From: Myxococcales bacterium | GTDB taxonomy: Bacteria > Myxococcota > Myxococcia > Myxococcales > JAJYLH01 | Assembly (NCBI GenBank): GCA_021787845.1 | Contig: JAJYLH010000003.1 | Span: 1 to 64,000, forward strand | Reading direction: 5' to 3' | DNA length: 64,000 nt | Shown: in pieces, positions 8,441 through 18,359 of the stretch | Layout of the letters: each line of letters begins with the position of its first letter | How positions within the stretch are numbered: the stretch's first letter is position 1 | Translations under genes and position numbers: made by a program | Notes under the pieces: model-generated | Databases searched by the model: none | What the model was told of the DNA's origin: nothing | Seen by the model: the letters and a program-made list of their open reading frames with translations, nothing else

Positions 8441-8519
<79 letters not shown>

Positions 8520-8662: not shown

Positions 8663-9073
8663 ATGATGGCTGAGACGCTCCGCTTCTGGATCGTGCTGCG
8701 CGAGGCGCCCGATGTCCCTGGCACTTGGATCGGCCACTGCCTCGAGCTCGACGTGGTCTCCCAGGGCGACTCGCCCGCACACGCGCTCTCGATGACGATC
8801 GAGGCCATCGGCATCGTTCTCGAAGGGGACGCCGAGAGCGGTCTCGATCCGCGTCGCCGCCGCGCGCCGGAAGAGGATTGGGAGGAGTTCGGAGCGCTTC
8901 TCGGCCGCTCGACACCGCTGCCCGGCCCGAATGCGCTTCGTGCGATCGAGGGCCTGACGGATCACCTCGAGGCGCTGCTCGCGTGCGTTGAGCTGGGACC
9001 AGCGAACGCCGAGGTCGAGGTGCCGGTGGCGTGGGCGGCGCGAGCGGACCGTGCCCCGTCGCTCTCCGTCTGA
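8663..9073 (+). CDS. HicB-like antitoxin
   Basis: A 136-aa protein beginning MMAETLRFWIVLREA. Residues 5-55 follow the HicB partial RNase-H-like fold: VPGTWIGHCLELDVVSQGDS, then PAHALSMTIEAIGIVL. The start at 8663 is chosen because GGAGG (8644-8648) lies upstream and the region before it is the tRNA/attL zone. HicB proteins bind and silence the HicA mRNA interferase and repress their own promoter. The next gene is HicA-like and overlaps it. The C-terminal part (60 aa) has no recognisable ribbon-helix-helix motif. Confidence 0.7.
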   Translation: MMAETLRFWIVLREAPDVPGTWIGHCLELDVVSQGDSPAHALSMTIEAIGIVLEGDAESGLDPRRRRAPEEDWEEFGALLGRSTPLPGPNALRAIEGLTDHLEALLACVELGPANAEVEVPVAWAARADRAPSLSV

Positions 9074-9293
9074 CGTGCCGGCGCGTCTGTCGGATATCGC
9101 CCGCGCGTGCGCGGCCCTCGGAATCGAGGTCGAGAAGCCGAAGACCGGCTCCCACTGGAAGGCGCGCCTCGGAGGCACCGTTTTCCCGATACCGGCGGGA
9201 AATGCGGGAAAGACCGAGATTCCAGACCTCTATATCCGAAAGCTGTGCCGCTGCTTCGGCATCGACGAGAAGACGCTGCGCTCGCTCCTTTGA
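9051..9293 (+). CDS. HicA-like mRNA interferase toxin
   Basis: An 80-aa protein. The core has KPKTGSHWKARLGG followed by VFPIPAGN and LYIRKLCRCFGID, matching the HicA double-stranded-RNA-binding-like fold, in which the His of GSH is catalytic. No ATG is close; GTG 9051 or GTG 9075 are the plausible starts, and the former makes a 23-nt overlap with the HicB-like gene, consistent with translational coupling. The order here is antitoxin then toxin, the reverse of the commonest hicAB order but seen in some systems. It would cleave mRNA if the partner were lost. Confidence 0.62.
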   Translation: MPRRSPSDVPARLSDIARACAALGIEVEKPKTGSHWKARLGGTVFPIPAGNAGKTEIPDLYIRKLCRCFGIDEKTLRSLL

Positions 9294-9681: not shown

Positions 9682-10347
9682 TCATTCGTCTGCGATGGCT
9701 TCGAACGCTCGCATCCGCGCGTTCGCGAGTTCCATCGCGGTCCACAGCAGCGCCACAAGGTCCGGGTCGAAGCCGATGATTTCCCATGCCCGATGCAGGG
9801 CATCGCGGACGGGCACGTCATCCCCGTGGAGCACGTCCACCGCCGCGCAGAACGCTTGCCAGACTGAAAGCGGCCACAGCTCCCGGTTCGCCGCGCGTAG
9901 GTCGTCGAGCACCGGGCCGATCCAACGGTCGCGGGAGGGAGACACAGCGCCTGGGTCCCCCCTGTTTTCGGCGTGACGGCGTGACACCGGCTTGTCTTTC
10001 AGCGGATTCGTGCGATCCGGTGGCGTGACGGGAGGCGTGACGGTCACGAGCGGACGGCGTGACGGCCGGGCCGTTGCGTCACGTCGGAGGGTGACGGGAC
10101 CGCCGCCGTGCTCCCACGGCGCTCCCTGTGAGCAGTACCAGAACTCGCCCGAGAGGAACGCTAGGCGGTCGGGATGACGCGGGCACTCGAAGTGCTTTTC
10201 ATCGGCCACCCGCAGCCCGAGCGATCGCGCCAGGTCGAGAAGCTCGCGCTCCGTCGTGCGGTCGGGGGGTGTCACGCCTCCCGTCACGCGCCCGTCACGC
10301 TGGGTGTCACGCCATCGCGATCGCGGAAACGCTTTGAAATGAGGCAT
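9682..10347 (-). CDS. Element protein of unknown function with a Cys/His cluster
   Basis: A 221-aa protein starting at ATG 10347 (MPHFKAFPRSRWRD), 2 nt after the TGA of the DUF3631 gene (TGACGATG), so translationally coupled. An N-terminal basic stretch rich in 'VTGGVTPPDRT' is followed by FECPRHPDRLAFLSGEF and WYCSQGAPWEHGG, a C..H...C...H cluster reminiscent of a degenerate zinc finger of the primase type. The C-terminal part is helical (LWPLSVWQAFCAAVDVL). Coupling to the ATPase suggests a role in element replication. The family is not recognised. Confidence 0.6.
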   Translation of the reverse strand: MPHFKAFPRSRWRDTQRDGRVTGGVTPPDRTTERELLDLARSLGLRVADEKHFECPRHPDRLAFLSGEFWYCSQGAPWEHGGGPVTLRRDATARPSRRPLVTVTPPVTPPDRTNPLKDKPVSRRHAENRGDPGAVSPSRDRWIGPVLDDLRAANRELWPLSVWQAFCAAVDVLHGDDVPVRDALHRAWEIIGFDPDLVALLWTAMELANARMRAFEAIADE

Positions 10348-10349
10348 CG

Positions 10350-11771
10350 TCACGCCGTCACGCCTTCTGCGGGGGGTGCTACCGGCGGGAGGTATCTCTC
10401 GACGACGGGGGCGAGGTCGGACCGGAGATAGCCGCGCCCCCGGTCGGTGTCCTGGCGGCTCTGCCGGGGTTCGACCTTGAAACGTCGGATTTGGCGCGAC
10501 AGCCACGCCGAGTCGATGGGCCTGCCCTTGTTGGCGGAAACCCAGCCGGCCACCTCGTCGGCCGTGAGCCGCTCCACGATGGTCTTCAAGGTGAGGAAGT
10601 CGCTCCCGTCCGAGTAGAGCGCCCACACGGCCGCGAGCAGCCGCTCGCGCACGTCCATCGCGTCGGCCTCGCCCTGCGCGCACAGCGTGACGAGCGCCTT
10701 CCGGGAGCGCTCCGGCCAGGCACCTCCGGCGAGGTCGGCGATCGCGAGCAACGGTTCCACGATGTCGCGCTGCCGGTCGTTCAGCCCTTCGGGAAGGTCG
10801 GGCGACAGCTCGGCGAGAGCGTCGGCGTTGTCCATCGCCCACCGGGCGCATCGAGGCGCGAGCGCGCGCACCTTCTCACGAGCACGTCGGTCGAACCGAG
10901 CGACAGCGGCACCGCTAGCCTTGCGCTCCATCCGGATCGGGACAGAGCGGTCGGCCAACGTGTCCGGCAGCGAGCCGATGCCCGCCAGCGTAACGGGCGC
11001 GAAGGCGGAGAACGGCTTCGGCTGGTGGTCGTCGCCCTCGCACCGAATCACGCTTCCCGATCGCGTATATCCTCCATTGAGAACAGCGCGTAGCTCGCCC
11101 GCGTTCTTCTGGTCGATGTTGTCCGTCTCGTCGATGAGCAGGGTCGGTTGCCACGCTTCGATGCTTCGATAGAGGGCGGCAGCGGTTACGCTTGCCGCCA
11201 TCATCGGCACTCGACAGACGAGCCCGAGCAGCTCCAGCACGATGCCCTTGCCGCACCGTTTCGTGGGCGAGGTGAGCGCGAGCCGCGGCGTGTAGTCCGC
11301 CGCCTCGAACGCCCAGGTGTGCAGAACCCACAGGGCGAGCACCGGGGGTGCGCCAACGGGCAGCACCACGTGCCGGGCGAAAGCCGCCTCGAGGTCCCCG
11401 AGTAACTGCGCCGTGCCCTGCGGTTCCTCTGCCGGTTCCACCTCGGCGATAGGATCGCCGGCAGCGCTGCCGCCCACCTTGGCCGTCGGCCCAAGGAATG
11501 CGTCGACGGTCCTGGCCGACGACTGGACTGTCGGTGAGCCGTCGGGCTGCCGGAGAGCGCGGAGCAGGCCGATCGCGCCCTCTCGCGTGATTGCGCGAGC
11601 ACCTGAGTCGAGCCCTTTGGCCTGCTCTGCGAGCGCCCGGAGCGCAGCCTCTACGTCGGCGAGATTGCTGTCGGCGTACAGATCGACACCCGCGATCGTG
11701 CCGACGTGAACGCGACGAGGATCGGATGCGCTATTGCTACTCTGTAGGGATTCGTCTAAGCTTCTCGTCAC
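10350..11771 (-). CDS. DUF3631-domain P-loop ATPase of mobile elements
   Basis: A 473-aa protein. The start is set at GTG 11771, which has AGGAGG (rc of 11777-11782) at 5-nt spacing; the upstream in-frame ATG at 11888 lacks such a site and lies in the repeat region. The core shows a Walker-A-like TSPTKRCGKGIVLELL, Walker-B-like PTLLIDETDNI and ADRSVPIRMERK, the signature order of DUF3631 proteins, which accompany primase/helicase genes in phages and islands. It is probably a DNA-dependent ATPase or helicase-loader acting in replication of the element. It is followed 2 nt later by the Cys/His protein. Confidence 0.75.
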   Translation of the reverse strand: MTRSLDESLQSSNSASDPRRVHVGTIAGVDLYADSNLADVEAALRALAEQAKGLDSGARAITREGAIGLLRALRQPDGSPTVQSSARTVDAFLGPTAKVGGSAAGDPIAEVEPAEEPQGTAQLLGDLEAAFARHVVLPVGAPPVLALWVLHTWAFEAADYTPRLALTSPTKRCGKGIVLELLGLVCRVPMMAASVTAAALYRSIEAWQPTLLIDETDNIDQKNAGELRAVLNGGYTRSGSVIRCEGDDHQPKPFSAFAPVTLAGIGSLPDTLADRSVPIRMERKASGAAVARFDRRAREKVRALAPRCARWAMDNADALAELSPDLPEGLNDRQRDIVEPLLAIADLAGGAWPERSRKALVTLCAQGEADAMDVRERLLAAVWALYSDGSDFLTLKTIVERLTADEVAGWVSANKGRPIDSAWLSRQIRRFKVEPRQSRQDTDRGRGYLRSDLAPVVERYLPPVAPPAEGVTA

Positions 11772-12137
11772 GTGGGCCTCCTGGGGTCCATCGAGGGCGG
11801 GCCGCCGGCAGCGGTGCCGCCCTGTTCGTTCAGTGGTAGGCTGTGGCGCTGCCGGTGTGCATTCCAGCTCGGCGGCGGGTATGATCACCTGTAGCGGTGC
11901 CGGTCAGCATTTCAGGCACAAGCCCTACGCCAGCGCTATCGCTTAGTTCAAAGCAAGTCACGCGGTGGCACCCTAGGTCAGCACCGGTATCGGTTGGCGG
12001 TAGCGATGCCCCCCGCCGCTTTACGGTGTGAGCAGAAGCGGTGCCGGATGCCGATTTCGCCGCTACCCACGGTTGTGCTATGTTGGCGGTAGCGCTACCG
12101 CTCCACTCGGCACCGGCGCGGTCGTGAACGTGACCGG
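11772..12137. repeat. Iteron-like repeat region between alpA-like and ATPase genes
   Basis: On the plus strand, short related motifs recur: GTAGCGGTGCCGG (11891-11903), AAGCGGTGCCGG (12036-12047), GTGGCGCTGCCGG (about 11843-11855) and GCAGCGGTGCCG (about 11809-11820), the first three each followed by a short .GCATTTC-like tail; TTGGCGGTAGCG occurs twice (about 11994-12005 and 12084-12095), the second inside the palindrome AGCGGTAGCGCTACCGCT or its near equivalent. One copy shares CCGGTCAGCATT with 9541-9552. Position upstream of a replication-type ATPase suggests an origin with iterons, or a multi-operator promoter. Confidence 0.5.
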
Positions 12138-12329
12138 TCACAGCGCGTCCCGGTCGGCCATCCACTTCGCGATGGCTGCGTCCACCTCGTCGGCCGCCCA
12201 CCGGGTCGTGCGCCCGCCAAGGCGCACGGGCCGCGGTAGCTTCCCGGCCGCTGCCCACCGCCAGATGGTCGTGCGACTCACCCGGAACCGGGCGGCCAGC
12301 TCAAGGTCAGTGACGAATCTCGTGTCCAT
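12138..12329 (-). CDS. AlpA/excisionase-like HTH protein
   Basis: A 63-aa protein, essentially a single MerR/AlpA-type winged helix: TDLELAARFRVSRTTIWRW (the recognition helix), then GKLPRPVRLGGRTTRWA and DEVDAAIAKWM. Such proteins activate integrase genes or act as directionality factors (Xis) that promote excision, and they often control satellite and island genes. The adjacent repeat region is the obvious candidate binding site. Length is normal for the family. Confidence 0.85.
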   Translation of the reverse strand: MDTRFVTDLELAARFRVSRTTIWRWAAAGKLPRPVRLGGRTTRWAADEVDAAIAKWMADRDAL

Positions 12330-12431: not shown

Positions 12432-13244
12432 TCAGGATGCCGTTGTCCCCGGTCCCGGCACTCTTTGGAGCGCCTTCTTCCACCGCTCGCGCCGCACTCG
12501 TTCACTCTTTTCGGGCAAGTCGACGCCCGTGTAGAGCGCCGCCAGCGCGAAGGCGCTCGCGCCGGGCATCTTCGCGATCAACGGCTTCGGTTTCTTGTCG
12601 AAGGTGAACAGGCCCTTCGGCACTTTCGCGTCGCCGGGTACCAACACCTCCTTCCAAAACAATTTCCGCTCGCCATCTCCGCTCATCGGAGGCCGGGAGT
12701 GCAGGTCGTAGGCGCGGATCATCGTGTTGCGTCGCACCTCGTTGACAATCGCGCGCGACTCCAAATCGGCAGCCTTGGGCTTGGTGACGTGCGGGCGCGC
12801 GGCGTTCATGGCGTCGCGCAGCTCCATGAGAGCGAGCTTGAGCCGATAACCGGCCGCACTCGCGTCGCGCGAAATCCGGCCGCCATGCAGAACCGCCGCC
12901 GCCGCCCCTCGTCTGCCGAAGTCTTCATGCTCTTCGGGAAAGAATTCCGGCGCTCCACGAAGCAGCTTCGCCACGTTGTTAGACAGACGCTTCCCTGTCG
13001 CGTCTTCAAGCCAATCCAGGAAGTCACTCGTCCACTTCTCGCGGCGGACCTCCTGCTTCGCGACCTTGATGAACGTGCGCGCCAGTGGCCCTGCGTCGCC
13101 TCCGCATACTCTCACCAGCTCTTCGAAGTAGCCGCGTTTGTCCGGGTCGTTAATAGGCCCCATTACCCTCCTCACCACCTTCTCCTGTTTGTTCGCCGAG
13201 GAAGCGGTGCGCGCGATCGGTTGCCGTGGTATCCTCTTCGCCAT
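12432..13244 (-). CDS. Unknown basic protein of the element
   Basis: A 270-aa Lys/Arg-rich protein, MAKRIPRQPIARTASSANKQ at the start, with no transmembrane segment and no recognised domain. ATG 13244 gives the longest form; an internal ATG at 13163 (MGPINDPDKRGYFEELV) sits behind GAGGAGGG at short spacing and may be the real start. The middle is helical (AAGYRLKLALMELRDAMNAA) and the end is GVDLPEKSERVRRERWKKAL. It lies between the alpA-like gene and the small membrane protein gene, all on the minus strand. Confidence 0.6.
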   Translation of the reverse strand: MAKRIPRQPIARTASSANKQEKVVRRVMGPINDPDKRGYFEELVRVCGGDAGPLARTFIKVAKQEVRREKWTSDFLDWLEDATGKRLSNNVAKLLRGAPEFFPEEHEDFGRRGAAAAVLHGGRISRDASAAGYRLKLALMELRDAMNAARPHVTKPKAADLESRAIVNEVRRNTMIRAYDLHSRPPMSGDGERKLFWKEVLVPGDAKVPKGLFTFDKKPKPLIAKMPGASAFALAALYTGVDLPEKSERVRRERWKKALQRVPGPGTTAS

Positions 13245-13318
13245 CGGACGCGGCCTCCATCTGAACCGACAGTGAGGGCGGGCCGTTCGGGCGGCGCCGC
13301 CCTCCGTCTTTCAGACGA

Positions 13319-13513
13319 TCATGCCTGCATAGCAAGGTGTTGGATCTCGTCGATCCGACTTTCGAGCTTGTCTACCCGGTCCTCAAGTCGGATACAACCG
13401 TTCACGAGTTCGTCGTGCCGGCCGACAAAATCCGTAAGGTACCGGCGCAGCACAACGAGCGAGGCCCAGAGGTAGACGCAAAATGCGGCAAGCACAAGCG
13501 CAACGACGATCAT
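13319..13513 (-). CDS. Small membrane protein with coiled coil (64 aa)
   Basis: ATG 13513 is preceded by GGAGA. One N-terminal transmembrane helix (MIVVALVLAAFCVYLWASLV) is followed by RRYLTDFVGRHDEL and a heptad-rich tail (CIRLEDRVDKLESRIDEIQ) likely to form a coiled coil. It starts 17 nt after the stop of the collagen-like lipoprotein gene. The topology (N-in or N-out anchor plus coiled coil) resembles small phage inner-membrane proteins such as i-spanins, but there is no homology evidence. Confidence 0.7.
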   Translation of the reverse strand: MIVVALVLAAFCVYLWASLVVLRRYLTDFVGRHDELVNGCIRLEDRVDKLESRIDEIQHLAMQA

Positions 13514-13530
13514 GGCAGTCTCCTTGGGCG

Positions 13531-14316
13531 CTACGGGAGAACCTGAACGATCCGAAGATCCCGTGAAAACTCGGGGACAACGCATCCCAACAAGGCAACG
13601 TGGAACGAGAAGCTCGGTACGTTGTCGACAGAGTAGCACCAACTATTCGCGCCCTGATACTCTTGGTAGGCGCCCGCACTACACTCGGGAATCTCGTGCC
13701 AATTCTGTTGTGTACAGCCGCCGGAAGGACATATTTGGTCAAGAAGATGGACTGTGGTTGAACCGCCCGTCCAGAGGTCTGCGGTAATCTCAGGGTCAGT
13801 GATCGTAATGTTGCAGGCGAGCCGGTCGCTGCTGTAACAGGGCGCGCCGTCGGGGCCGGACGCGACCCAACAGGCTCCGCCGTCGGGGTCGGACACGTTC
13901 AGGCCGGGCACGGTCACGAAGGTCTTGACCGTGCGCGTGCCACTGTCGTTGATGGTGCATGAGCCGGGGTCACCTTTCGGTCCCTGGTCGCCAGGTGCGC
14001 CGTTGCAGGCGTAAGCTGTAGCGCCATCAGACGACGAGATTGACGTGCCGCCATACAGGCAGTGCGCGTCGCCCGGCACCAGCGAATCGACCGTGATGGA
14101 CGTTCCCGGCGCGCCGGGGTCGCCTTTGGCTCCCTGCGTGCCCGCCGGCCCCGCGGGACCAGTGTCGCCCGCCTCGCCTTGGGCACCGGTCGGCCCCTGC
14201 GGACCGATCGGGCCTTGCGTGCCGGTCGCGCCCTTCGCTCCCTGGGGACCGGCCACCGTCTTCGTGCATCCGAGCGCGAGAACCGCGACGCAAAGGCAAA
14301 GATAGCTGTTTCTCAT
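13531..14316 (-). CDS. Collagen-like repeat lipoprotein 1
   Basis: A 261-aa protein. The signal peptide ends in LALGC (lipobox-like; Cys about residue 17). It is followed by TKTVA and 17 uninterrupted Gly-X-Y triplets (GPQGAKGATGTQGPIGPQ...), with a second short run near residue 105 (GAPGDQGPKGDPG). The remaining C-terminal ~150 residues are Cys-rich (SCTINDSGTRTVKTFVTV; ICPSGGCTQQNWHEIPEC) and unlike any family I recognise. Gly-X-Y runs form a triple-helical stalk, so a trimeric surface lipoprotein with a globular head is likely. It is paired with a small membrane protein gene, as is its paralogue. Confidence 0.8.
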   Translation of the reverse strand: MRNSYLCLCVAVLALGCTKTVAGPQGAKGATGTQGPIGPQGPTGAQGEAGDTGPAGPAGTQGAKGDPGAPGTSITVDSLVPGDAHCLYGGTSISSSDGATAYACNGAPGDQGPKGDPGSCTINDSGTRTVKTFVTVPGLNVSDPDGGACWVASGPDGAPCYSSDRLACNITITDPEITADLWTGGSTTVHLLDQICPSGGCTQQNWHEIPECSAGAYQEYQGANSWCYSVDNVPSFSFHVALLGCVVPEFSRDLRIVQVLP

Positions 14317-14385
14317 GGCACTCCCTCGGACACACGGAAAGCGGTACCACCCCCGGCAAGCGGCGTCAAGGGCACGGGCACCGTG

Positions 14386-14547
14386 CTAAAGGCGCTCCGA
14401 CCCCTTGAGGAAGACGAAGCCGCAAAACGCCAACGCGACTCCCGCCGTCGGGTTGAAAGCCGGCCGGTCGACATCCGCACCCCCGAGCGCAACCACCAGA
14501 CCCGCGACGGCCGCCAGCACGCCGAGCCAGAAAAGGAACTTCTTCAT
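14386..14547 (-). CDS. Small two-helix membrane protein (53 aa)
   Basis: ATG 14547 is preceded by GGGAG at good spacing. Translation: MKKFLFWLGVLAAVAGLVVA, then LGGADVDRPAFNPTAG and VALAFCGFVFLKGSERL, ending at TAG 14386-14388. Two hydrophobic helices are joined by a short loop, with Lys at both ends, a holin-like or small structural membrane protein topology. It lies 26 nt after the upstream lipoprotein gene and 69 nt before the next, so it is probably in the same transcript. Function unknown. Confidence 0.72.
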   Translation of the reverse strand: MKKFLFWLGVLAAVAGLVVALGGADVDRPAFNPTAGVALAFCGFVFLKGSERL

Positions 14548-14573
14548 GGGAATCTCCCGGAGAGAACGTTCGC

Positions 14574-15224
14574 CTACGGCACAAACCCGTCGACGAGCAG
14601 TTGCCCGTTACCGGCGGCATGCCTGGCACAGAGCGATTCGCCGGCTCTGACGAACGTGCGAAGCCCGCTACCGATCGATAGCGGGCGAAAGCCGAAGGCG
14701 ACGGTTCCGGGCTCGGCATGGTTCGCGGCACACGATCCCGCTGGCGCGGCGTAGAGGATGGGGGCGCCGGCGGCGTCCGTCAGAACGAACGGCCCGTCGA
14801 TGAGCCGCGCGTCCATGTACACCGTCCCTGACGGGGGCGTATCGAGGAGCGCGCTCGCGGGGCAGCCGGGCTGGCTGCAATCCTGCGCATGAGCCTGGAG
14901 GCAGTCGCTGCCCGAGACACAGAAGGCCAGGTCGCACGTGGGTGGTGTCGAACAAGTCCATTGCAGAGAGATCGAAACGAGCCGCGAGGGATCGCTGTCC
15001 GGTGGAACAACCGGCACCGAACCCGCATCCGGCGACCACGCAGCTCCGGGCGGGCCGGGCTCACCGGTCAACCCCTGTTGGCCCATCGCACCCGTGTCGC
15101 CCTTGTCGCCCTGCGGACCTGCCGGGCCTTGCGGCCCCCGAGCGCCCATAGGGCCTATCGGCCCGATGGAGGACTTCGTGCATCCGACCGCGGTGATGAC
15201 GATGAGAAGCGCAAGGCGCCTCAT
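14574..15224 (-). CDS. Collagen-like repeat lipoprotein 2
   Basis: A 216-aa protein, paralogous in design to the one at 13531-14316: signal peptide [15 protein letters not shown], then TKSSI and 14 Gly-X-Y triplets ([18 protein letters not shown]...). The C-terminal ~145 residues differ from the paralogue but also carry several Cys ([27 protein letters not shown]) and a possible receptor-binding or shielding domain. First gene of the four-gene minus-strand cluster. Its likely location is the outer membrane, with the triple helix extending outward or into the periplasm. Confidence 0.8.
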
Positions 15225-15667: not shown

Positions 15668-16099
15668 ATGGCCACGAGGCAGCAGAGCGGACCACCGTAC
15701 GAGCTTGAGTTCTACGTTGACGCGAACGGCAAAGAGGTCGTGCGGGAGTGGTTGCGCGGGCTGTCGCTGCGCAAGAAGCAGATCATCGGCGCGACGATGA
15801 ACGAGGTGCTCCAACACCTCGGGGTCGGCGTGTGCGAAACGAAGTTCGGGCGGCAGCTCGGCGGTGGTCTGTTCGAGTTTCGCGTGCGCGTCGATGCGGG
15901 CTCCGTCCAACCCGGCCTGCCGCCCGAGAAGGTGCTGCTCCGCGTCTTCTGCCACGCGCACGGCAACCGGATCGTTCTGCTCTTGGGCGGGTACGACAAG
16001 GGCGAGGACCCGAGCGCCAAGCGCCAGCAGGCGGAAATCGAGCTGGCGCGCAAGCGGCTCGCCGAATGGCGCTCACGGCAGGCAGGAAACAGGGGTTGA
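15668..16099 (+). CDS. RelE/HigB-type toxin (Gp49-like)
   Basis: A 143-aa protein. YELEFYVDANGKEVVREWLR, a helix (KKQIIGATMNEVLQHLG), then KFGRQLGGGLFEFRVRV and VLLRVFCHAHGNRIVLLLGG, closing with GYDKGEDPSAKRQQAEIELA. This is the order seen in phage-derived Gp49-like HigB ribosome-dependent mRNA nucleases, including the final 'F.KK....P..EI..A' type segment. It is followed 47 nt later by an XRE antitoxin, the canonical HigBA order. Confidence 0.8.
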   Translation: MATRQQSGPPYELEFYVDANGKEVVREWLRGLSLRKKQIIGATMNEVLQHLGVGVCETKFGRQLGGGLFEFRVRVDAGSVQPGLPPEKVLLRVFCHAHGNRIVLLLGGYDKGEDPSAKRQQAEIELARKRLAEWRSRQAGNRG

Positions 16100-16146: not shown

Positions 16147-16542
16147 ATGGCGGACGACCTGAAGCAGTTTCTCGACGAGGTACGGGCCGAGTCCGAGGCG
16201 GCAGGCCCCGAGGCGGTCGCCGAGCTCGAGGCGTATCGGCGGCACTTCGAGCTAACCCGGCAGCTCCACGAGCTGCGCGTGGCTCGCGGCTTGAGCCAAG
16301 CCGAGCTGTCGCGCCGGTCGGGGGTACAGCAGAGCGAGATTTCGCGCATCGAGCACGGCCGCGGGAACCCGACCTATCAGACGCTCGCGGCGCTGGCGGG
16401 CGCGCTGCGCTCGCGTATCGCGTTCGTGCCGGCAACCGAGACGACCGTCCGCGCGAAGCGCGCGACCGTGACTCGAACGCACGCCGAGCGAAAGCCCTCA
16501 AGCCGGGCGTATTCGAGAAGCGCGGTCTACGCCAAGCGGTAG
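16147..16542 (+). CDS. HigA-type XRE-family antitoxin
   Basis: A 131-aa protein with a helix-turn-helix at about residues 36-90: LTRQLHELRVARGLSQAELS, then RRSGVQQSEISRIEHGRGNP and TYQTLAALAGALRSRIAFVP. The acidic N-terminal arm (MADDLKQFLDEVRAESEAAG) fits a toxin-wrapping segment. The C-terminal tail is basic (RAKRATVTRTHAERKPSS). It is preceded by GAGGTGGG. It probably neutralises the upstream RelE/HigB-like toxin and represses the pair through the inverted motifs upstream. Confidence 0.82.
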   Translation: MADDLKQFLDEVRAESEAAGPEAVAELEAYRRHFELTRQLHELRVARGLSQAELSRRSGVQQSEISRIEHGRGNPTYQTLAALAGALRSRIAFVPATETTVRAKRATVTRTHAERKPSSRAYSRSAVYAKR

Positions 16543-16699: not shown

Positions 16700-18064
16700 T
16701 CACGCGATGGACACCACCTTCGCGCCGTCCAGCTCGCGCCCTTCGACGATGCGAGTCAGCTCGGCCGCCCACGCGACGAGCGCGGCGCGCTTCTCCTTGT
16801 CGAAGTCGTGCCGTTGGTAGACCTTCATCATGCCGACGAGCGCGTGATTCAGCACCCGCTCGACGACGTGCGGCGGGAAGCCGAGCGCGCCGAGCCGGGT
16901 GGCGACGGTGCGCCGGAGGTCGTGCGGCGTCGGCCGGGGCGCGGTCGGCCGCGCGACCTGACCGGACGTGTCCGCCTTCACCTTGCCGGCCTTGCTCGAC
17001 CCTTCGGCGCGGCTCAGGACAGGCTTCGCGGCCGGCGCCGCGTCCGTTGGCAGGGCAAAGACCTTCTCCATCGCTTTCGTCAGCGCGTCGCGGGTCAGCG
17101 GGCCGACGGCGCGGGTGCGGTTCTCGTCGCCCTTGTGGCCAGACAGCCGGAGGGTCCGGGCCGGGAATAGGAAGCCCTCGCTGGCGAGCGGCAGGGCCTC
17201 GCGCACGACGGCGAGCGCGGCCGGCGACAGCGGCACGACGTGCTCGAGGCCGTTCTTCGAGCGCGCCGCCGGCAGCGTCCACCGGGCCGCGTCGAGGTCC
17301 AGCTCTTCGAGAGCGATGCCGGCCGCCTCGCCCGCCCTCGCGCCGGTGAGCGCCACCAGGCGCAGCGCCAGCCGGGTCGAGGGATGAAGGTGCCCCGGCG
17401 CCGTCGCGAGCCAGAACGTGCGCAGCTCGTCGTCGGTCAGCACGCGCTCGCGCGGCTTCTCCCGAGTCGGCCGGACATGCACCGCCGGATCGTTTTCGAG
17501 CACCCCGGCGTCGACCGCGAACCGGAACATCCGCTTGACCACGGCGAGCGTCCGGTTGGCGATGACGGGCGCATCGCCCTCATGCGGGTTGCGGACGGAC
17601 TGCACGAGGGCCGCCACGTCCGCGCGCTTCACCTCGTCGAGCTTGAGCTTGCCGATCTTCGGCAGCACCTTGCGCGCGAGAAGCCACTCGTCGAGGCGCC
17701 AGCTCTTTTTGTTCGGCCGGGCATGCTCGTCGAGGTAGCGGGTCGCGAACGCCTCCACGGTCGGCATCCGCGCGGCCTTGACCTTCGCCCGCTGCGCTTC
17801 GGCCGCCGGGTTGGAGCCGGTGCGAAGCTGCGCGGTCAGCTCGGCCGCCCGTGCGCGGGCGTCGGCGAGGCCCACGGTCGGCCAGTCGCCGATCGTGACG
17901 ACGCGAAGGCGTCCGCCACGTCCGCCCTGCCGGTAGCAGAAGCGCCAGCTCTTCGCGCCGGAGGGGTAGAGCCGGAGGTAGAGGCCGCGCGTCAAGTCGT
18001 CCTTCACGTCGAGGCGCTTGGCCGGGGGTCGAAGTTGGGTGATGGCCTTCGCGGTGAGGTTCAT
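16700..18064 (-). CDS. Tyrosine-family integrase of the element
   Basis: A 454-aa protein with start ATG 18064 (MNLTAKAITQLRP) behind GAAAGG. Domains: N-terminal DUF4102/arm-binding type (GLYLRLYPSGAKSWRFCYR; VTIGDWPTVGLADARARA), SAM-like core (VEAFATRYLDEHARPNKKSW), then the catalytic domain with Arg in LTGARAGEA, HDLRRT (HxxR), LNHA and the nucleophile Tyr in MMKVYQRHD. It is adjacent to attR, pointing inward. Residues near 340 (PVLSRAEGSSKAG) are encoded by a dispersed hairpin repeat (16994-17024) inserted in frame between catalytic motifs; all active-site residues remain, so it may still work. Confidence 0.92.
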   Translation of the reverse strand: MNLTAKAITQLRPPAKRLDVKDDLTRGLYLRLYPSGAKSWRFCYRQGGRGGRLRVVTIGDWPTVGLADARARAAELTAQLRTGSNPAAEAQRAKVKAARMPTVEAFATRYLDEHARPNKKSWRLDEWLLARKVLPKIGKLKLDEVKRADVAALVQSVRNPHEGDAPVIANRTLAVVKRMFRFAVDAGVLENDPAVHVRPTREKPRERVLTDDELRTFWLATAPGHLHPSTRLALRLVALTGARAGEAAGIALEELDLDAARWTLPAARSKNGLEHVVPLSPAALAVVREALPLASEGFLFPARTLRLSGHKGDENRTRAVGPLTRDALTKAMEKVFALPTDAAPAAKPVLSRAEGSSKAGKVKADTSGQVARPTAPRPTPHDLRRTVATRLGALGFPPHVVERVLNHALVGMMKVYQRHDFDKEKRAALVAWAAELTRIVEGRELDGAKVVSIA

Positions 18065-18096
18065 CGAAACGCCTTTCGCCACAGCGTTCGCGGCTT

Positions 18097-18181
18097 CGGG
18101 GTCTACCCCCGGGGTAGACCCCTCGAACAAGCGACATCGCCGGGACAAGAGGCGGTCCGGGGTAGCTCCCGGGGTAGACCC
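18097..18181. repeat. 12-mers, possible integrase arm sites (right end)
   Basis: A near-perfect palindrome, GGGGTCTACCCC and GGGGTAGACCCC around one C (18098-18122), is followed by the tandem pair CGGGGTAGCTCC (18158-18169) and CGGGGTAGACCC (18170-18181). They lie directly upstream of the integrase start and match the left-end pair at 8573-8596. A role in integrase binding or autoregulation is inferred. Confidence 0.5.
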
Positions 18182-18309
18182 CGGCGGCGCCAAGAGTAGC
18201 TCCGTCCCGACACAGCATGCAACATGCCAGAGCGGGGAACGCCTTGTTTTCTGCCGTATTTAACGGATTCGTGACACGACGCGCGACAGCCTGGAACGGC
18301 AGGTCGTCA

Positions 18310-18359
18310 GAATGGCATTCAAGAGGTCGTCGGTTCGATCCCGATCAGCTCCACCATGA
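18310..18359. repeat. attR: displaced 3' half of the original tRNA-Ala
   Basis: A perfect copy of 8470-8519, beginning in the anticodon stem and ending just after CCA. There is no 5' half, so it cannot fold as a tRNA. It marks the right boundary of the integrated element. Confidence 0.93.

Follow-up and report, generated by a model that had tools for sequence, protein, structure and literature searches.

A tRNA-Ala island of a Myxococcales bacterium carries two collagen-like lipoprotein genes, each followed by a putative small membrane protein gene

The window analysed here is a 64,000-nucleotide stretch of contig JAJYLH010000003.1 from a Myxococcales bacterium (GenBank assembly GCA_021787845.1), and it contains an integrative element of 9.84 kb (Table 1). 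The element is flanked by exact 50-bp direct repeats, attL and attR, each composed of the final 47 bases of a tRNA-Ala(GGC) gene (which ends at 8516) followed by TGA. A 25-base piece of this repeat recurred in none of 100 shuffles of the window. An integrase and repeated copies of the tRNA 3' end, the two marks of a tRNA-integrated mobile island, are both present. Four genes inside the island, all on one strand, encode in this order a collagen-like lipoprotein (LP1), a 53-aa hydrophobic protein (sp53), a second collagen-like lipoprotein (LP2), and a 64-aa protein with one transmembrane (TM) helix (sp64).

The remaining island genes were assigned using Pfam, PHROG, and PADLOC. We infer that the DUF3631 protein is a replication-type ATPase of islands. 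Downstream of it, on the minus strand, a frame at 9682-10347, which has no Pfam match and whose Cys/His motif (FECPRHPDR...FWYCSQG) may bind zinc, perhaps encodes a primase-type partner. In PADLOC, the AlpA-like HTH protein in addition hit Mad1, a model from the MADS defence system (1.9e-9), probably as a generic HTH_17 match. Beside attL, a gene pair at 8666-9293 resembles HicB/HicA by eye, with no Pfam match at E<=1, and is perhaps the second toxin-antitoxin-like pair of the island. Site-specific integration, the integrase, the AlpA-like regulator, the replication-type ATPase, and the length of about 10 kb recall P4/PICI-type satellites and AlpA islands (PMC8628076, PMC10111431). In contrast to those satellites, no packaging-type, capsid-size, or structural genes were recognised among the element proteins scanned with Pfam and PHROG, several of which have no function assignment. 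Searches for sibling elements with the DUF3631 protein and the integrase yielded remote matches only; two DUF3631 loci had neither a tRNA nor collagen cargo.

Table 1. Features of the tRNA-Ala island, in window coordinates
Feature	Coordinates	Strand	Evidence and remarks
attL	8470..8519	+	3' part of tRNA-Ala(GGC) gene (8441-8516, ARAGORN); exact 50-bp repeat of 18310-18359
DUF3631 protein	10350..11888	-	Pfam DUF3631 4.6e-35
AlpA/excisionase-like HTH protein	12138..12329	-	Pfam HTH_17 1.4e-8, Phage_AlpA 5.5e-6; PHROG excisionase 7.6e-11
270-aa protein	12432..13244	-	No family or relatives detected by Pfam and similarity searches
Stable hairpin after sp64	13240..13325	-	RNA MFE -45.6 kcal/mol, z -3.5
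sp64, 64 aa	13319..13513	-	One N-terminal TM helix (hydropathy 2.6), then charged coiled-coil-like tail; Shine-Dalgarno AAGGAG; 17 nt after LP2 stop
LP2, 261 aa	13531..14316	-	Lipobox Cys17; 17 Gly-X-Y triplets (residues 23-73), two-Cys module, 5 triplets (106-120); ~140-aa head without detected relatives
Two-Cys module of LP2, 44 residues	13981..14115	-	GDxHC..GG..ACNGAPG type; profile A1 match 3.5e-20
sp53, 53 aa	14386..14547	-	Hydrophobic, probable two-helix hairpin (hydropathy maximum 2.4); Shine-Dalgarno GGGAG; 26 nt after LP1 stop
LP1, 216 aa	14574..15224	-	Lipobox Cys15; 14 Gly-X-Y triplets (residues 21-62); ~150-aa head with 8 Cys, without detected relatives
RelE/HigB-like toxin gene	15668..16099	+	Pfam Gp49 4.8e-5, 23.8 bits, slightly below the 23.9 cut-off
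HTH antitoxin/regulator gene	16147..16542	+	Pfam HTH_3 1.8e-14
Tyrosine integrase	16700..18193	-	Adjoins attR; Pfam Phage_integrase 3.1e-19, Arm-DNA-bind_3 1.6e-18; PHROG integrase 5e-67
attR	18310..18359	+	Second copy of tRNA-Ala 3' end; exact 50-bp direct repeat

LP1 and LP2 each combine a signal peptide and lipobox with the Pfam Collagen repeat, as is characteristic of collagen-like surface lipoproteins. The Collagen model was matched above its cut-off of 27.2 bits by both LP1 (E 1.7e-7, 31.3 bits) and LP2 (E 3.8e-10, 39.8 bits). The lipoboxes, identified by pattern, follow hydrophobic segments and stand immediately before the stalk (AVGC in LP1, ALGC in LP2); the Gly-X-Y runs are perfect and begin in both proteins six residues after the lipobox Cys. 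The distribution of GC over codon positions is in favour of LP1, LP2, and sp53 being translated (GC3 of 0.73-0.83, against 0.66 for sp64), and LP2 is preceded by a Shine-Dalgarno-like site, GAGGGAG.

The gaps along LP1-sp53-LP2-sp64 are 26, 69, and 17 nt. Because an antisense ORF at 13337-13546 fits the GC pattern equally well, the case for sp64 as a gene rests on its strong Shine-Dalgarno site, the short spacing, and its TM and coil composition. The protein has no N-terminal positive charge and carries RR directly after the helix, which by the positive-inside rule suggests that the coil would be cytoplasmic, the reverse of an i-spanin. A resemblance of sp64 to PspB was not significant (E 0.096). 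The stable hairpin 3' of sp64 possibly marks the end of the operon; neither a consensus promoter nor a T-tract terminator was found in that region.

An earlier note made from this DNA had described the four genes as a duplicated cassette on a mobile element. Its gene coordinates and its counts of 14 and 17 triplets proved exact, the second Gly-X-Y run of LP2 being absent from it, and Gly-X-Y lipoproteins with tiny membrane proteins on the minus strand were confirmed by Pfam Collagen, the lipoboxes, and the coordinates. The mobile setting turned out firmer than had been claimed, given the exact tRNA-Ala repeats and the integrase. The proposal of one duplicated functional module found no support: the cassette occurs twice as a gene order and not as a sequence duplication. 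The LP1 and LP2 heads aligned no better than shuffled sequences (z 0.03), the same was true of sp53 and sp64 (z 0.71), and the 5' DNA of LP1 and LP2 showed no more similarity than did that of collagen lipoprotein genes in other genomes, so that duplication in the sense of sequence homology outside the repeat was rejected. The likeness of the two leader-plus-stalk regions is real, but their DNA is no more alike than either gene is to collagen lipoprotein genes of other genomes. In comparisons of the protein leaders, LP2 was closest to a lipoprotein from a different family, 213 aa long (L062), and LP1 was closest to LP2. Within the host genome, LP2 matched chromosomal proteins on contig C24 better (52 bits) than it matched LP1 (35 bits). 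The description of the heads as unrelated and Cys-rich holds only in part: the first Cys pair of LP2 belongs to a standard module of the collagen lipoproteins of the order.

Collagen-like matches to LP2 were found in 44 of the 60 genomes searched. Loci in related genomes were examined using a script that identified genes with a lipobox and a Gly-X-Y run and then looked on the same strand, within 160 nt, for an ORF of 35-110 aa with a TM segment and a Shine-Dalgarno site; as a positive control, both pairs of the window were recovered. In a first set of 42 other genes (two of which are one gene fetched twice), a small TM ORF lay near two, at distances of 150 and 128 nt, the second being marginal. 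In a second set, of ten genes with the two-Cys module, one such ORF was found, and it was the start of another collagen lipoprotein. Only one to three of the 52 comparison genes thus had a small membrane ORF within 160 nt, and the pairing with a small gene is therefore local. The sole loose analogue of the pairing in the window lies at L070:224-1246, where an ORF of 86 aa with two TM segments precedes the gene of a 195-aa collagen lipoprotein by 150 nt on the same strand. No tyrosine-recombinase motif was found in the flanks of the comparison loci, a few kb each, apart from the integrase of the window itself.

The lipoprotein plan itself (lipobox, Gly-X-Y stalk, variable C-terminal head, often in tandem) is common in relatives, and the small partner is not. 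Tandem arrays of such lipoproteins were seen in Labilithrix, a myxobacterium (L051), in Fibrobacter (L052), and in the host (L099). LP1 and LP2 share this plan with the collagen-like lipoproteins of the order (e.g., L062, L064, L069, L130, and L099), and LP2 in addition shares with them the two-Cys GDxHC..ACNGAPG module; the lipoproteins of the order differ in that their flanks showed no recombinase, that they nearly always stand without a small TM partner, and that their heads show no relationship to those of LP1 and LP2. The earlier note had asked whether the parts occur independently of each other. For the lipoprotein type this is largely the case, in related genomes without small membrane partners or a nearby tyrosine recombinase; the heads and small proteins have no relatives to compare.

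Searches of 145 genomes from the order and 195 from the phylum found no match to the heads, sp53, sp64, or the 270-aa protein. Separate searches with sp53 and sp64 gave nothing better than E 0.001, and a single sp53 match (3.6e-4) inside a 677-aa frame was dismissed as a hydrophobic stretch. Viral contigs searched with LP1, LP2, the 270-aa protein, sp53, and sp64 returned Gly-X-Y matches only, and the two read in detail were long collagen-rich proteins in phage-like contigs. Phage records searched with LP2 and plasmid records searched with the 270-aa protein gave no match. Among PDB sequences, the LP1 head had chance matches only (best E 0.41), and the LP2 head matched one designed protein (E 0.015 over 31 residues), which was dismissed. 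AlphaFold models built from single sequences were unusable (pLDDT 44 for LP1 and 36 for LP2), and Foldseek, run with that of LP1, found no structure at E<=0.001, which is unsurprising for so poor a model.

The four genes are reasonably probably one co-oriented cargo operon of the island, in which LP1 and LP2 are modular collagen-like surface lipoproteins conferring an accessory surface trait. This reading is supported by the lipobox-Gly-X-Y architecture, about 50 similar genes in relatives, the spread of the two-Cys module of LP2 in the order and in the array of the host chromosome, the element boundaries, the shared strand, the Shine-Dalgarno sites, and the short gaps. Proteins with a lipobox are lipidated, and those with Thr at position +2 are normally sorted to the outer membrane. 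Repeats of the Gly-X-Y type assemble as trimeric rods. Judging from the signal peptide and lipobox, LP1 and LP2 would be exported by Sec and lipidated at Cys15 and Cys17, and with Thr rather than Asp at +2 they would be sorted to the outer membrane. By collagen geometry (~0.86 nm per triplet), the 14- and 17-triplet stretches could trimerise into a short rod of ~12-15 nm, although a helix of 14 triplets is short and its stability is uncertain. The rod would hold a Cys-rich, probably beta-rich C-terminal head off the membrane, where the head may bind a cell, polymer, or surface. sp53 and sp64, probably co-transcribed small inner-membrane proteins, would be at most accessory or assembly factors, and the stalked-lipoprotein account leaves them unexplained. 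The operon would thereby give the carrier of the island an accessory binding property at the cell surface. By analogy this property is probably adhesion, which is favoured because several characterised bacterial collagen-like surface proteins, such as Scl, PclA, and Lcl, act in adhesion (cited in PMC4565658). Scl1/Scl2, Legionella Lcl, and Burkholderia Bucl likewise have a Gly-X-Y stalk with non-collagenous end domains (PMC4565658). LP1 and LP2 are distinguished from Scl-type adhesins by a lipid anchor in place of LPXTG and by head domains that are not common to both. NCBIfam matches of LP1 and LP2 to bacterial collagen-like adhesins covered the stalk only, at about 26-35 bits against cut-offs of 325-500.

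Other explanations of the cassette were weighed against the accessory surface operon. It is somewhat unlikely that the small ORFs ride along independently (or that sp64 is no gene) and that the two lipoproteins alone form a functional unit, acquired from the chromosome of a member of the order. The rarity of small TM ORFs beside other collagen lipoprotein genes, the mutual unrelatedness of sp53 and sp64, and the antisense rival of sp64 point that way, whereas the strong Shine-Dalgarno site before sp64, the TM-like composition of both small proteins, and the short gaps, smaller within the pairs (26 and 17 nt) than between them (69 nt), speak against it. There is a slim chance that the genes form an envelope system of the island in which each collagen-stalked outer-membrane lipoprotein works with a dedicated tiny inner-membrane partner for assembly, surface delivery, or entry exclusion.

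The earlier note had also raised a phage shield and a lysis-like set. Receptor shielding or superinfection exclusion, in which the outer-membrane lipoproteins would cover or block a phage receptor and the small proteins would help to prevent DNA entry, is quite unlikely. The cassette does belong to a mobile element, with integrase and AlpA-type genes as neighbours, and phage lipoproteins such as T5 Llp, likewise encoded by a mobile element, do block receptors (PMC9586334). Llp, however, is periplasmic, jams FhuA from the inside, and has nothing like a collagen stalk (PMC9586334). PADLOC had no match for the four cassette proteins, the phage records and viral contigs held no relatives beyond the Gly-X-Y stretch, and chromosomes commonly carry lipoproteins of this plan with no recombinase nearby; no positive evidence for a shield came from any of these searches. 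A lysis-like set, with sp53 as holin, sp64 as i-spanin, and a lipoprotein as o-spanin, is most improbable. In its favour are the sizes and TM arrangement of the two small proteins and the adjoining lipoproteins, but an endolysin-type domain was absent among the element proteins scanned (Pfam, PHROG), as were packaging or structural genes. The charges of sp64 suggest the wrong topology for an i-spanin, and the lipoproteins, at 216-261 aa with collagen stalks, are unlike o-spanins.

The lipoprotein family itself is ordinary, and the unusual part is the mobile carrier together with the two small neighbours; the specific cassette is without known relatives. The island shows that modular collagen-like lipoproteins of this kind are carried as cargo by tRNA-integrated islands too, which means that such surface proteins can move between strains. 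The two-Cys module is widespread, being found by profile A1 in 37 of the 145 genomes of the order and 22 of 46 genera, and it is interleaved with Gly-X-Y blocks; none of the proteins scanned had a Pfam match over it. Aligned with six other copies, the one in LP2 shows 43-57% identity to them. In the host chromosome, an array at L099:7258-11999 (contig C24, about 45-50 kb) contains three collagen lipoproteins with six copies of the module, and the two of these lipoproteins that were scanned have FGE-sulfatase-type heads.
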